In this document: piece after piece, positions 8,699-13,798 of the stretch
Layout: each line of letters begins with the position of its first letter
Position numbering within the stretch: position 1 is the stretch's first letter
DNA from: Burkholderiaceae bacterium
Lineage (GTDB): Bacteria; Pseudomonadota; Gammaproteobacteria; Burkholderiales; Burkholderiaceae_D
Reading direction: 5' to 3'
NCBI GenBank assembly: GCA_018882935.1
Contig: VERA01000023.1
Location: 1-33,593 of the forward strand
DNA: 33,593 nucleotides
Made by a program: the position numbers and the translations under genes
Notes under the pieces: model-generated
What the model was told of the DNA's origin: nothing
Databases searched by the model: none
Seen by the model: the letters and a program-made list of their open reading frames with translations, nothing else

Positions 8699-9718
8699 TT
8701 ACTTTTTGTCGGCAGCAACCGAAGCCAGTTCTGGATAATCCTTAAGCATCGGGAAGCCATACAAAGGTTTGTAGGCGCCCTGGTGACAGGTCGCGCAACT
8801 CACCTTCGCGACATCACCACCCGGACCTTTACGCTCGACCGGGAATACCTCAGTCAGCGGCACCATGTACTCATTATTCACATCACGCGCCATACGAATA
8901 CCGTGATAGGCAGTCACACGCTGTGGCGGGCTGCTCTCCCAGCTCTGGAAAGAACGCGTGTTGTGGCAGTAGGTACAGTTCACACCAAGCGAAGTCGACA
9001 TATGCGTCATCAAGCTATAGGTCCACTCAGCCTGCTTGATCGAGTGCCGGTTACCCGATGGCAGTGGCGTTGGGCCATTGACGCGAATCGGCTTGTCTTC
9101 CAGCAGAAACGGTGTCAGCGCATCGGTTGGTAGCGATGACATATTCGCCAGCGGTGCAGGTGTGTTCTGCCCTGCCAGATCACCGATGAAGTCGGCGCGC
9201 TTGTCTTGCTCGAGCGGTGTGAACCACACATTAGTGGGTACCGGATTACCGCGGTGACAGGTGTAGCAGGTGACACCGGTTTCAGCGACGTGATTTTTCC
9301 AGTTACCGTTGATGTGGCGTGTCATCTCGATCATCTTGCGTGCAACGATCTTGGTGTACTTGCTGTCCTCGGCAAAATTTTGCACGTTATGGCAGTAAGC
9401 ACAGCCCTCTTTCGGCGATACCCAGGCGGTGATTTGCGTCATCAAGCCGATGAACTGCCCTGCTGACAAATCACCGAGTACTTGCACGTTCTGGTATGAG
9501 GCTTTTGCACGCGGACCATCGGGTGACGCGGGTGGTGGCGCGGGTGGCACGGTGTTGAGCGCGTCTTGAGTATCGAGATGACGCGGGTTATAGACCTGCA
9601 CCATGCCGGTACCGCGGAAGCCGTGCTGCACACTATCCATTGGCGGTCGCTCGCAACCCGCGAGCAGCGCGCAGCTCAATGCGAGCAGCGCGGTGATTGT
9701 CGGGATTCGGAAGGTCAT
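8699..9718 (-). CDS. pufC: Reaction-centre tetraheme cytochrome c subunit
   Basis: PufC sits on the periplasmic face of the reaction centre and re-reduces the oxidised special pair. The 339-residue protein has a lipoprotein signal (LSCALLAGC, lipid Cys22) and four CxxCH heme sites: CAYCH at 106-110, CYTCH at 151-155, CTYCH at 248-252 and CATCH at 308-312. Candidate methionine ligands precede each site, for example ARKMIEM and SLMTHM. It starts in a four-base ATGA overlap with the pufM stop, so the two are translationally coupled. Length and heme spacing are normal for the family. Confidence 0.97.
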
Positions 9719-10692
9719 GGCTTGGCTCCCTGCAAAGTAGCGGGGTCAACAATATCGCCCCAGACATGCGGATACGGTGGCGCAAAGCCATGCTTGATGG
9801 CCCACAGATACCAGTTGTCGACGGCGGTGCCGGTGAGCAGGATGCCGATACCGCCCGTCAGCGGACACAGCACGGCGAACCACCAGGCCCAGCGGTGAAT
9901 CGATTCCATGGTGGCGTTGAAGCCCATGGTCCAGCGCCAGAACAAAGCAGCACGCTCAGTCGCGGTACCGCGATCAATAATTTGCTCGATCTCGCGCTCA
10001 CCGCCGTAGCGACCCACTGCGAGAATAGTGGCACCGTGCATCGCAAACAGCAGCGCAGAGCCATACAAGAACGCAATCGACAACGCGTGGAAAGGGTTAT
10101 AGAACAGGTTGCCGTAGCGTAGTGAGAATGCCGCCGTCCAATCAAGGTGCGGGAAGATACCGAACGGCACCGCTTCGCCCCAGCTACCCATCAGCACCGG
10201 GCGGAACAAACCCAGCACCAGGAACAACCAGATCGCCGCCGCAAATGCCCATGCGATATGCGTACCGAGTTGCAACGCACGTGCACGGCGATACACATTC
10301 GCCCACCACAGCAGAATCGAAATCGTCAGGAACAGGCCGGCGATCTGCCACCAACCACCCTGATTCAAAGGTGCAAATCTCAAACCATTGCCTGGTGCAG
10401 GTGGATCAAGCGAGAGCCAGAATAATTGGCGAATGAATTGCACCGGGTCCCAATTCACCGAGGCCAGCATGTTCATGCCGATGATGGTGAATGCAAACAA
10501 ACCGAACATCAGCGACATCGTGCCGAGTACACCGATATAGATCGGTCCGATTTGCGCGTTACCGAGTCGGCCTGCCAGGTGCAGCAAGAAAGGTGTGCCG
10601 GTTCGTGATAACGCCGGTTTGTGCTGCGCTATACCATCGTGCAGTGGTCCGGTGACCTGCACTGCCGTAAAGAGATTTTGATATTCAGCCAT
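9715..10692 (-). CDS. pufM: Photosynthetic reaction-centre M subunit
   Basis: The M subunit, with L, binds the bacteriochlorophyll, bacteriopheophytin and quinone cofactors. The protein (325 residues) has five transmembrane helices. Recognised by [40 protein letters not shown], the special-pair region [29 protein letters not shown], and the quinone-side [19 protein letters not shown]. The histidines expected for special pair and iron (FHALS, MHGAT, SIHRW) are present. Ten bases separate it from pufL, with AAGGAG before ATG 10692. It overlaps pufC by four bases. Confidence 0.98.
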
Positions 10693-10702
10693 CGTGTGCT
10701 CC

Positions 10703-11530
10703 TTAGCGGTTCCAGATCGGCATATTCAGCCACCAGTTCCACCACTCCGGCCAGCCACGACTCCAGAATGGTCCCGACAACACAATGCACAGTGCAGAGA
10801 ACAGTACCGCTGCCAGTGCGAGGAATAAACCAAGACGGTGAATACCCAAGGTGCCAACCGAGTAACCGACCAGATCGCGGAAGTAGGTATCTTCGTGCTC
10901 AGGTGTCTTGACGGTCTGGCCTTTAGCCGGATTAGTCGATGAGAGCACCAAGCCACCATGCATGGACAGCGCCAATGCCGTGGTGAAGAAGAAGGTAATG
11001 GCGATCATGTGCGCCGGGTTGTAGTGGAAGTGCAGATACTGGTAACCGACGTTCGAGACCCAGTCGAGATGACTGAAAATCCCGTAGGGGAAACCATGGC
11101 CCCAGGCACCCATCAGAATCGGGCGCACCACATTCAGTGTCACGTAAGCCAAGATGGCAATCGAAAATGCAAACGGTACGTGGTATCCCATACCCAGCTT
11201 GCGACAGATTTCAACCTCTCGCGCGGCCCATGAGCCAAACGCACCGATCGCGCATACGGTGATCAACTGCCACAGCCCGCCCTCAAGCAGCGGCGCCATG
11301 CGCAAGCCGTAAGAGAGATCAGGCGGCGCGATATTGATCTGCCACACATTCCAGGTCGGCCCTTGCGACGCGCCCCACAGAATCAGCGCAGTGCCGAGGA
11401 ATGAAAAGAAGATGGTAGTCACGCCGAAGAACCCGACGTAGAAGGGACCGATCCAGAAATCGAATAGGTCCCCTCCCACCAGGGTACCCCCACGAACCCG
11501 GTATTTTTTCTCGAAACTCAACATGGCCAT
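10703..11530 (-). CDS. pufL: Photosynthetic reaction-centre L subunit
   Basis: The L subunit forms the heterodimer core with M. It starts [20 protein letters not shown], then [20 protein letters not shown], the classical PufL N-terminus, and carries [49 protein letters not shown] and the iron-histidine segment [14 protein letters not shown]. The protein has 275 residues, the normal size. ATG 11530 is chosen over an upstream in-frame codon at 11548 because GGAGGG lies about eight bases before it and the family begins there. It follows stem-loops in the pufA-pufL gap. Confidence 0.98.
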
Positions 11531-11589
11531 GATCGAGCCCTCCAACAAGGATGCACAAAGTCATCCCGCATTAATCTTGGGAGGACAGA

Positions 11590-11630
11590 CATGTGAACGC
11601 GTCACATGCCCGCCCACCACCACAAGGTGG
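11590..11630. promoter_or_regulatory. Stem-loops between pufA and pufL
   Basis: Two perfect inverted repeats follow pufA: CCACC-acaa-GGTGG (11617-11630) just after the stop, then CATGTGA-acgcg-TCACATG (11590-11608). In Rhodobacter, hairpins at this place protect the pufBA part of the mRNA from 3' decay and raise LH1 over the reaction centre. The same role is inferred here from position. Confidence 0.7.
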
Positions 11631-11635
11631 ATTTT

Positions 11636-11809
11636 TTACTTCGGCATGGATGCGTTCTGGGCAGTCGATGGGCTTTTCGCACCATCCAGCCAGTTGAACT
11701 TGTTCGTCGATAACAGGATGAGATGAATCATCGCTGCTAGTCCGAACAAGAAAACCCCCTGAATCACCATTGCACGCAGCGGGTCGTACAGGCGCCATAT
11801 TCTCCACAT
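11636..11809 (-). CDS. pufA: LH1 alpha polypeptide
   Basis: This 57-residue single-helix antenna polypeptide begins [20 protein letters not shown], then [20 protein letters not shown]. His29 is the bacteriochlorophyll ligand. The N-terminal WxxWxLxDP(x)RA and the C-terminal STxxFNWL are hallmarks of LH1 alpha. The tail ([17 protein letters not shown]) is short and polar. The ribosome site GGAG overlaps the stop of the preceding 73-codon gene, so pufA translation is probably coupled to it rather than directly to pufB. Confidence 0.96.
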
Positions 11810-11820
11810 GGTCCTATCTC

Positions 11821-12042
11821 CTAAAGTGTGTGTGACATGAACGAATACACCGCAGCCTGCACACCCCCGAACAGGGACTTGCAGCTCTCCGCACCAGGTA
11901 GCCAGCTACGCCATGGCATACCAGTCAGCGAGCCGACTAGTGCAATCGCGAGCACGACCATGAATCCCAGCGTAAAAACCATCCTGAAGGTGACGCTTTC
12001 CACCGTTCTTTCTCGTTCCTGGTTCAGTTGCATGTTGGCCAT
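11821..12042 (-). CDS. Single-helix protein encoded between pufB and pufA (PufQ-like or beta-like)
   Basis: The protein has 73 residues: a polar N-terminus ([16 protein letters not shown]), one transmembrane helix (residues 17-40, [20 protein letters not shown]), then PWRSWLPG and an amphipathic tail [15 protein letters not shown]. Aligned without gaps to the neighbouring PufB from Phe19 of ORF73 and Phe18 of PufB, it shares F, G, two Ala and the WRxW end, but both histidine positions are replaced (Arg, Ser). The helix also resembles PufQ as I recall it (F...F.L...V....ALVG), though pufQ normally precedes pufB. AAAGGAA lies before ATG 12042, and its stop overlaps the pufA ribosome site, so it is very likely translated. 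Function unknown; LH1 assembly or a ring-associated subunit is inferred. Confidence 0.75.
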
Positions 12043-12073
12043 AGTGTTTCCTTTCGTTAGCGGCTAGCCGAGA

Positions 12074-12220
12074 TCAAGTGATCCAGGGACGCCATGCCCA
12101 CACCAGCGCATGTGCGATCACGGCAACTGCCGTGAATCCCACCAAGCCCTGCATGTAATACGCATGGAATTCCTGAGCCTCTTCATCGGACATTCCGGAA
12201 ATACTCTTCCTTTCAGCCAT
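12074..12220 (-). CDS. pufB: LH1 beta polypeptide
   Basis: This 48-residue beta polypeptide of the core antenna reads [20 protein letters not shown], then [20 protein letters not shown] and WAWRPWIT. The canonical EFH (His19) and the bacteriochlorophyll ligand His37, 18 residues later, are present, and it ends with the WxWRPW motif. AAGGAG sits 8 bases before ATG 12220. It is the first puf gene, 111 bases after bchZ. It is followed, unusually, by the 73-codon gene and not directly by pufA. Confidence 0.97.
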
Positions 12221-12331: not shown

Positions 12332-13798
12332 TCAAGCTGCCTCTCCTATACGCAATGACTCTCTTGCTCTTGAAACGCGCTCAACACTGACACTCGCCTC
12401 ACCGGCACGGCGAGCATCACGTTCAGCGCGATCACGTATTTGCTTGGCTGCCGAGATCTGAACCAACACAGGTTCAGCAGCGACCAGTTCATTCAACAGC
12501 TCGCGCGCCGCGTCATCCCATGCGGCTTGTGCGCGTACCGGTGTCGGATCCACTTTGTCCATATCGCTGCCCAGCGGCAGTATGTTGAACAAGGCATCGA
12601 ATAAGCAGTTACAGAATTCTTGGAGCAGATAAGTGGCGCCGGCATAACCCATGAAAGGGGTACCGGTATGGCGCCGGATAATCGCACCGGGGAATGAGGC
12701 AGTAACGAAACTCGGCTTCATCGGCGACGATGCACCAGCCTCAGCCAGGTACATACGCTCGTTGTAGCTGCCGTACAGCACCAGCGGCGGTTTCTCACGT
12801 ACCAGTTTTCTAATCGTTTCGTTATCGGTTTTTTCGCCCGGCTTGCGCGCTACCGCAAAGTTACATGGCAGGCCCATCTCTTCTTCGAAGAAGTGGCGTA
12901 AACCACGCGCATACGTTTCGTTGGCAACTACCGCGAAATTAGCTGTACCAAAAAAGTCTTGTGTGACCGAGCGCCACAAATCCCAAATCGGTTTGATCGT
13001 GGTGTGCTTCTCGCGCTCAATGAAAGGCTCGGGGTCGAGGTGCAGTAACTCACCGAGTGTGCGCAGGAATTTTGTCGTACTGTGTAAACCGATAGGTGCT
13101 TGCAGATACGGACGCTCTAATGCCTCGCATAACAAGCGGCCAAACTCGCGGTACATGCAAATATTCACATCCGCATCAGCCAAATTCTGCACATCAGCCA
13201 AGTGGCTGCCGAGCGGGAACACCATGTTCACTTCAGCGCCAATACCCTCTACCAGCCGACGAATCTCGGCCAGATCGCTCGGCATGTTGAAGGTGCCGTA
13301 GCAAGGACCGATGATATTGACGCGTGGCTTCTCACCCGGCTCGCGCTGATCGAACGGTTTGCGCTCTGGTACATGACGCAGACCATATTCATGCCACAGC
13401 CACAGCATGGCGCGGTTGGCGCACTGCCACTGATCTTCGTCGATGGTGCGTGGCAAGAAGCGCAAGATGCTGGTGCCTTCAGGGGTCACACCACCACCAA
13501 TCATTTCAGCGATAGAACCGGTGACCACAACCGCAGGCAGATCCGGATCGAGCACGCCGTGTGCACGCTTCATCGAGCCTTCGGTACCTTCACGACCCAG
13601 TTGCTCTTCCGCCAAACCCGTCACCACAATCGGTAGCTCATGCGGGGGCAGCGCATCGGTGTAATGCAACACAGAAGTGACTGGCAGATTCTCGCAACCC
13701 ACAGGCCCGTCGATGATGACTTGCAGCCCCTTAATCGCGGTGAATACATACACCGCGCCCCAATAGCCGCCTGCGCGATCATGGTCAATGATGTTCAT
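12332..13798 (-). CDS. bchZ: Chlorophyllide a reductase subunit Z
   Basis: BchZ forms with BchY the catalytic heterotetramer that reduces ring B of chlorophyllide a, taking electrons from BchX. The 488-residue protein is nitrogenase MoFe-like. It opens [20 protein letters not shown] and has the cluster-ligand cysteine Cys35 in [12 protein letters not shown]. Further landmarks are [38 protein letters not shown] and [19 protein letters not shown]. The start overlaps the bchY stop by four bases. It is followed by the puf operon. Confidence 0.97.

Follow-up and report, generated by a model that had tools for sequence, protein, structure and literature searches.

PufX, protein-W and LH1 gamma are small pigment-free helices of the RC-LH1 complex, and a Pfam scan and searches of the PDB gave no sequence match between any of them and the small gene described here. 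A gene of this kind is already in print as ORF2 of Rubrivivax gelatinosus and as ORF74 of Roseateles depolymerans. According to a 2025 paper citing Nagashima et al. 1994, Rubrivivax ORF2 lies upstream of pufA in the puf operon and its function is unknown; the protein is reported to lack the alpha His29, shows 10.1-14.5% identity to PufA2 in an alignment with PufA/PufA2, and is judged not to be the source of pufA2, and the available section on it draws no relation to LH1 beta (PMC12817894). Rubrivivax also has ORF1 upstream of pufB (PMC12817894). In Roseateles, ORF74 (RD2015_RS05155) lies between pufB and pufA by the locus tags, and pufA, pufB and ORF74 share a major 1-kb transcript; no other loci were affected as strongly as these three in a 2023 paper, whose available passages state no function or homology for ORF74 (PMC10037100). 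We tentatively equate the Rubrivivax gene with ours by its position in the betaproteobacterial puf operon, and liken ORF74 (74 residues, judging by its name) to it by position and co-transcription.

PufQ (PF05398) resembles the gene product, both being small proteins of the puf operon that have a single helix and a C-terminus that is conserved. As far as the available text of PMC5725709 goes, its helix and C-terminus are conserved and its N-terminus and linker divergent, the C-terminus is predicted to be cytoplasmic, deletion of pufQ in Rhodobacter sphaeroides leaves 6% of the bacteriochlorophyll, and a pull-down recovered PufQ together with ferrochelatase. The NOR5/OM60 and Sphingomonadales clades lack pufQ (PMC3176799, available text). 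Searches of the open-licence PMC literature yielded no role for ORF2 or ORF74, and the available parts of PMC5374385, PMC12654162, PMC9640540 and PMC3176799 contain nothing on an ORF2-type gene. Nor did these searches bring up the proposed identity of the protein as a histidine-less beta, its spread, its complementarity with long-tailed betas or its link to ORFs at the position of PufQ.

The gene between pufB and pufA

The window, that is, the whole stretch of 33,593 nucleotides that was analysed, carries on its minus strand the genes bchC, bchX, bchY, bchZ, pufB, ORF2, pufA, pufL, pufM and pufC, in this order. The features relevant here are the following:

12332..13798, minus strand: bchZ (TIGR02014, 766 bits)
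12074..12220, minus strand: pufB, short LH1 beta of 48 aa with 2 residues after WRPW (NF040862, E 1.5e-22)
12048..12054, minus strand: ribosome site AAAGGAA of ORF2 (sequence inspection)
11821..12042, minus strand: ORF2/ORF74-type gene, putative pigment-less LH1-beta homologue; ATG start, 73 aa, TAG stop included
11824..11913, minus strand: ORF2 codons 44-73, interface motif and C-terminal tail, the best-conserved part (dN/dS, alignment)
11810..11823, minus strand: TAG stop of ORF2 overlapping the pufA ribosome site (TAGGAG)
11636..11809, minus strand: pufA, LH1 alpha (NF040861, E 9.1e-18)
11549..11645, minus strand: pufA-pufL spacer with a strong hairpin (GGGCGGGCAUGUGA..UCACAUGUCUGUCC; folding against shuffles)
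8699..11548, minus strand: pufL, pufM and pufC, reaction centre and cytochrome (TIGR01157, TIGR01115, NF040706)

An earlier sequence-only reading had drawn attention to an extra gene of 73 codons between pufB and pufA, and the ORF is placed as it claimed. Its own AAAGGAA site, which reads GAAAGGAAACACTATG, and the overlap of its TAG stop with the AGGAG of pufA (CTTTAGGAGATAGGACCATG), 11 nt from stop to pufA start, are likewise as described there. The gap-free alignment with PufB proposed in that reading is correct and pairs F19 with F18, R20 with H19, S38 with H37 and WRSW with WRPW; thus the window protein lacks both beta histidines and has the alanine at -4, counted from the magnesium-binding histidine, and Trp-Arg-x-Trp. 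The extra C-terminal tail is present as well, its length being about 25 residues past the end of PufB and not the about 30 that had been given. The bchZ-pufB gap of the window measures 111 nt and contains no ORF at the PufQ position.

The spacer hairpin has a folding energy of -42.2 kcal/mol (z -4.3) that was matched by none of 200 shuffles, and folding of the regions around the start and the stop of ORF2 gave no strong hairpin. The spacer hairpin may shield or stabilise the pufB-ORF2-pufA transcript and could lengthen its life. Since ORF74 of Roseateles rides on the major pufB-pufA transcript, the product of the window gene would, by analogy, be made in LH1-like amounts.

Occurrence in Burkholderiales and outside the order

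Among 399 sampled genomes of the order, pufM was above the cut-off in 48, of which two (G166 and G320), whose region ends at a contig edge, were left out, giving 46 genomes with the region in view. In 38 of these, ORF2 is present between a short PufB and PufA. Five have no ORF2, and there PufB itself has an ORF2-like tail together with both histidines. The remaining three, all of one genus (g65), lack ORF2 and pair a short PufB with a small membrane ORF in the bchZ-pufB gap, the PufQ position. The tail thus sits on ORF2 (38) or on beta (5) in 43 of the 46 operons of the order, it being noted that these genome counts are not independent by descent. The earlier statement that pufB and pufA normally adjoin each other therefore fails in this order. 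The lengths of the betas follow the same division: 1-3 residues come after WRPW in all 52 carriers with a whole PufB, and 27-28 in the five long betas of the order. A membrane ORF before pufB, GTG and TTG starts included, is found in none of the 48 ORF2 loci for which the region upstream of pufB is in view; a gene like ORF1 of Rubrivivax was seen in none of these carriers.

The ORF2 search matched 47 genomes, two of which (G208, G239) were matched through PufB, one (G363, a 386-aa frame) probably by chance and a further five (G049, G273, G303, G199, G185) through a long PufB, which leaves 39 with ORF2, including one (G294) without pufM in view. Counted regardless of pufM, homologues occur in 17 of 21 same-genus genomes, that of the window included, and the first search found them also in three other families of the order. 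A titled genome collection gave 13 contigs with ORF2 (73-95% identity), of which 10 bear the name Oxalobacteraceae or Burkholderiaceae in their titles; the 13 overlap the same-genus and family genomes and were not added to the counts. A 14th match (L036), of 14 residues, was taken as chance, and so were weak matches that looked like second ORF2 copies in L002, G020 and G015. A plasmid collection searched with ORF2 gave no match. Conservation in relatives, which the sequence-only reading had proposed as a check, was found, with homologues keeping the same gene order in many genomes; because of this, and of a pooled dN/dS of 0.14 (see below), the ORF of the window is more than a chance frame.

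Some single loci deserve mention. The long-tailed PufB without ORF2 is found at L085, L086, L088, L089 and L090, and genus g35 has both arrangements. Divergent PufA (MWRYWRIVDPRKAIILTG...) and PufB (NPSGLTD.ECQEFH...) occur at L083, L084 and L087, in genomes that retain ORF2. In G012, a same-genus MAG that is 71% complete, the ORF2 homologue (L019, 1495-1716, G012:C45) lies away from pufB and pufA, about 360 nt downstream of acsF, whose frame is without its C-terminal end, and adjoins crtB.

Outside the order, 20 puf loci were considered, 5 within the class and 15 from the rest of the phylum (gamma- and alphaproteobacteria by inference), the 15 being inspected for profile matches only; six further pufM genomes, all with PufQ, were left out. 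ORF2 is missing from the pufB-pufA gap in all 20. An ORF other than PufQ occupies the PufQ position in ten, PufQ itself is present in two, and in eight neither was found. The complementary pattern of the tail is confined to the order, because nine of these ten operons combine the PufQ-position ORF with a long-tailed beta.

Relation to the LH1 beta subunit

A phmmer search of all PDB chains with ORF2 (E<=10) returned nine distinct sequences, all light-harvesting, with a best E-value of 1.1e-6; six are labelled beta and three are beta-like by alignment. With a 20-sequence ORF2 profile the same best chain was found at E 2e-12, and the other matches were antenna chains except for one chance GPCR match (E 0.94). 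In profile-profile comparisons with hhalign, ORF2 matched the long-tailed LH1 betas with a probability of 99.6% (E 1e-23) over 75 columns that include the tail, and the short betas with 96%; reversed-profile controls reached at most 2.2% for every pair with ORF2 and up to 6.5% for pairs without it. The score for homology to LH1 beta was 115.8, versus 22.9 for the best of 60 column-permuted controls. Kinship to PufA was rejected, the hhalign probability of 1.4% being at the level of reversed controls. Judging from these comparisons, ORF2 is a single-helix homologue of the LH1 beta subunit, and the suggestion that it is a non-pigment beta-like subunit gains support as regards both the homology and the missing histidines.

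The curated families do not capture this relationship: neither the Pfam LHC model (PF00556) nor the NCBIfam pufB model (NF040862) matched ORF2 at E<=10, and scans of Pfam, NCBIfam and PHROGs gave nothing near any cut-off. In the phmmer and profile searches of the PDB no chain matched ORF2 better than ordinary betas do, and for this reason structures cannot place it. The long-tailed betas named above give the best profile match: their helix, Trp-Arg-x-Trp and C-terminal tail can be aligned with ORF2 over the 75 columns, and they differ from it in having both histidines. This kind of beta is probably the one represented by chain B of 8z81; in the open-licence PMC literature the sole listing for the codes 8z81, 9m8m, 8zjw and 8z82 is unrelated.

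The loss of the pigment ligand is general. In an alignment of 54 ORF2 proteins, obtained after removal of four duplicate loci (L045, L047, L048 and L092) and including L019, which is not in a puf operon, with 66 betas, of which that of L092 is a duplicate locus, the position of the magnesium-binding histidine is occupied in ORF2 by Gln (29), Thr (12), Ser (11), Gly (1) or Leu (1) and never by histidine (0 of 54), versus histidine in 66 of 66 betas. The outer histidine position has histidine in 2 of 54 ORF2. The surroundings of the site are retained, with Ala at -4, Trp at +6, Arg at +7 and Trp at +9 each present in 53 of 54 ORF2 (in the betas, Ala -4 in 65, Trp +6 in 66 and Trp +9 in 66 of 66), and Pro at +8 is missing from all 54. 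As the histidine is replaced throughout, ORF2 is most likely unable to bind bacteriochlorophyll in the customary manner.

Among the same-genus sequences (14 of the 17 found) the pooled dN/dS of 0.14 breaks down into 0.29 for residues 1-17, 0.17 for the helix (18-43) and 0.021 for residues 44-73, in a set whose synonymous sites are near saturation (dS 1.1). The C-terminal tail is thus the most constrained part of ORF2 and is under very strong selection. The residues that are invariant in a 20-sequence set (A1) are W44, R45, W47, P49, G50, E52, A64, V65, Y66 and S70. An AF2 model of middling confidence (mean pLDDT 70.7) has a long helix (2-40) and a tail helix (57-72), the amphipathicity of the latter not being significant (shuffle p 0.08). 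Foldseek on this model returned two matches at E about 9, which are meaningless for a single helix, and the net charge around the helix (-0.4 before, +0.6 after) is uninformative on topology.

Possible roles and the relation to PufQ

The reading that we favour, tentatively and as one that comes close to being probable, is that ORF2 serves the LH1 ring as a beta-like partner that carries no pigment and works through its tail; its place in the ring is one that we infer. An ancestral tail-bearing beta would have been duplicated, after which one copy would have kept the pigment and lost the tail, and the other would have kept the tail and lost the pigment. The ORF2 protein would be made along with beta and alpha, would insert next to them as a beta-like helix without pigment, within the ring or attached to it, and would hold its tail on the periplasmic side, where the tail would stabilise either the ring itself or the contact between ring and reaction centre; a pigment-free seam may be left in the ring by it. 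The strongest argument for such a role is that the tail, in 43 of 46 operons, belongs to ORF2 or else to beta, itself a subunit of the ring. Several observations speak against it: the complementary pattern stops at the order and its cases share descent, the AU tests described below keep the PufQ-position ORFs as well as the betas as candidate nearest kin, the amphipathicity of the tail is not significant, no chain of ORF2 was found in the PDB, the curated beta models miss it, the AF2 confidence is middling, a profile of PufQ-position ORFs, which are not necessarily ring subunits, also finds it, and the homologue in G012 lies away from pufB and pufA, near acsF. If the favoured reading holds, betaproteobacterial RC-LH1 structures may contain an extra helix.

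It is also quite possible, although we consider it doubtful, that ORF2 does a job like that of PufQ, namely that of a membrane factor outside the finished complex that steers the supply of porphyrin or bacteriochlorophyll and aids antenna assembly. ORF2 would then have replaced, or descend from, a gene at the PufQ position and now be located between pufB and pufA. The sequence-only reading had considered a relocated PufQ-type factor, and in its simple form this did not stand: PF05398 gave no match to ORF2 at E<=10 and was above the cut-off in none of 37 genomes (the own one and relatives), so that direct membership in PufQ was rejected. In 398 genomes of the phylum PF05398 was above the cut-off in 13, the 10 strong ones being in one family. 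The direct hhalign comparison of ORF2 with PufQ is weak (30.8%, over 32 columns of the helix only), PufQ lies elsewhere in the operon (between bchZ and pufB), and Trp-Arg-x-Trp is absent from the nine PufQ sequences used. What survives of the idea is a distant profile similarity by way of the PufQ-position ORFs. A profile of 11 of these without any ORF2 (A2) ranked ORF2 first in all 10 carrier genomes that were searched (E 2e-11 to 5e-4), the only other match below E 0.05 being PufB, in two of them; these were whole genomes chosen from the 39 carriers, and in five of them 150 of 154-210 first-look candidates were scored. Further in favour of a PufQ-like job are the lack of a membrane ORF upstream of pufB in the 48 ORF2 loci and its presence in the three g65 genomes without ORF2, as well as the pattern of conserved helix and C-terminus and divergent N-terminus and linker, which PufQ shares (PMC5725709, available text).

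The PufQ-position ORFs themselves match PufQ with 77% over 71 columns, a value that drops to 42% without L094, which was assigned to the set by position and by eye and scores only 13.6 bits in the leave-one-out comparison, and to 23% without L111 (leave-one-out range 23-85%); the score of 30.0 exceeds the 24.3 of the best of 60 permuted controls. Their match to ORF2 is 98.1-98.2% and to the long betas 98.2%, so that ORF2 is closer to the long-tailed beta (99.6%) than to them, which counts against a PufQ-like job. In a tree of selected sequences from 72 columns, PufQ groups with the PufQ-position ORFs (support 96 unrooted, 87 midpoint-rooted), in line with a PufQ-like job, and ORF2, L091 excepted, makes up a second group (94) whose neighbours are two of the order's long betas, a placement (71) that counts against such a job without being decisive; AU tests on the same columns retained all tried placements of ORF2, with betas or with PufQ-position ORFs as kin. 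Topology also speaks against a PufQ-like job, since the C-terminus of PufQ is predicted to be cytoplasmic (PMC5725709, available text) and the tail of ORF2 would lie outside, judging by its homology to beta. A search of the PDB with one PufQ sequence (from L104) found no chain.

In the manner of PufX or protein-W, one or a few copies of ORF2 might replace a beta and open the ring as a quinone gate. A beta-homologous helix without a pigment ligand is what a gap-maker could plausibly look like, and in the window pufM is followed by pufC and not by a PufX-like gene, PufX being encoded after pufM where it is present (PMC9640540, available text). We consider this unlikely, as Pfam gave no PufX match and no PufX, W, U or Y chain was among the PDB matches; in addition, the location of the Roseateles gene on the abundant pufB-pufA transcript (PMC10037100, available text) suggests many copies rather than one. 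Far less probable still is that ORF2 is a decaying copy of beta, or a leader that merely couples the translation of pufB to that of pufA. Its stop does lie 11-22 nt before the pufA start in the 52 carrier loci, as coupling would have it, but selection disfavours both versions (dN/dS 0.14 overall and 0.02 in the tail), and residues are retained across many families and a homologue is kept away from puf in G012.

Whichever role applies, 38 of the order's 46 genomes with pufM and the region in view have a conserved gene in the middle of the antenna operon, and an "ORF of unknown function" becomes a testable part, be it a third polypeptide of the ring, a seam for quinones or a factor that acts in assembly. 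The possible relation to PufQ offers, moreover, a possible origin for that protein. The PufQ-position ORFs (L111, L113, L115, L117-L120, L094, L095, L097 and L073-L075), all located between bchZ and pufB, have a single, mostly LH1-beta-like helix and a conserved C-terminus, and the three that were scanned with Pfam gave no PufQ match; by their sequences they seem to bridge LH1 beta and PufQ. ORF2, these ORFs and PufQ could accordingly be one family of pigment-less betas that turned into accessory parts of LH1 building, a reading that we regard as possible and hold with considerable reserve. It is weakened by the direct comparison of long betas with PufQ, which at 2.3% is at the level of permuted controls, and because this comparison fails, the family link of ORF2 to PufQ, plausible and not proven, relies on the intermediate ORFs. 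If this one-family reading were true, purple bacteria would have re-used a broken antenna protein as the builder or the seam of the antenna. One of the PufQ-position ORFs, that of L095, has a histidine at the magnesium position (VFAHFMPKKWRGW) and is perhaps an intermediate form.
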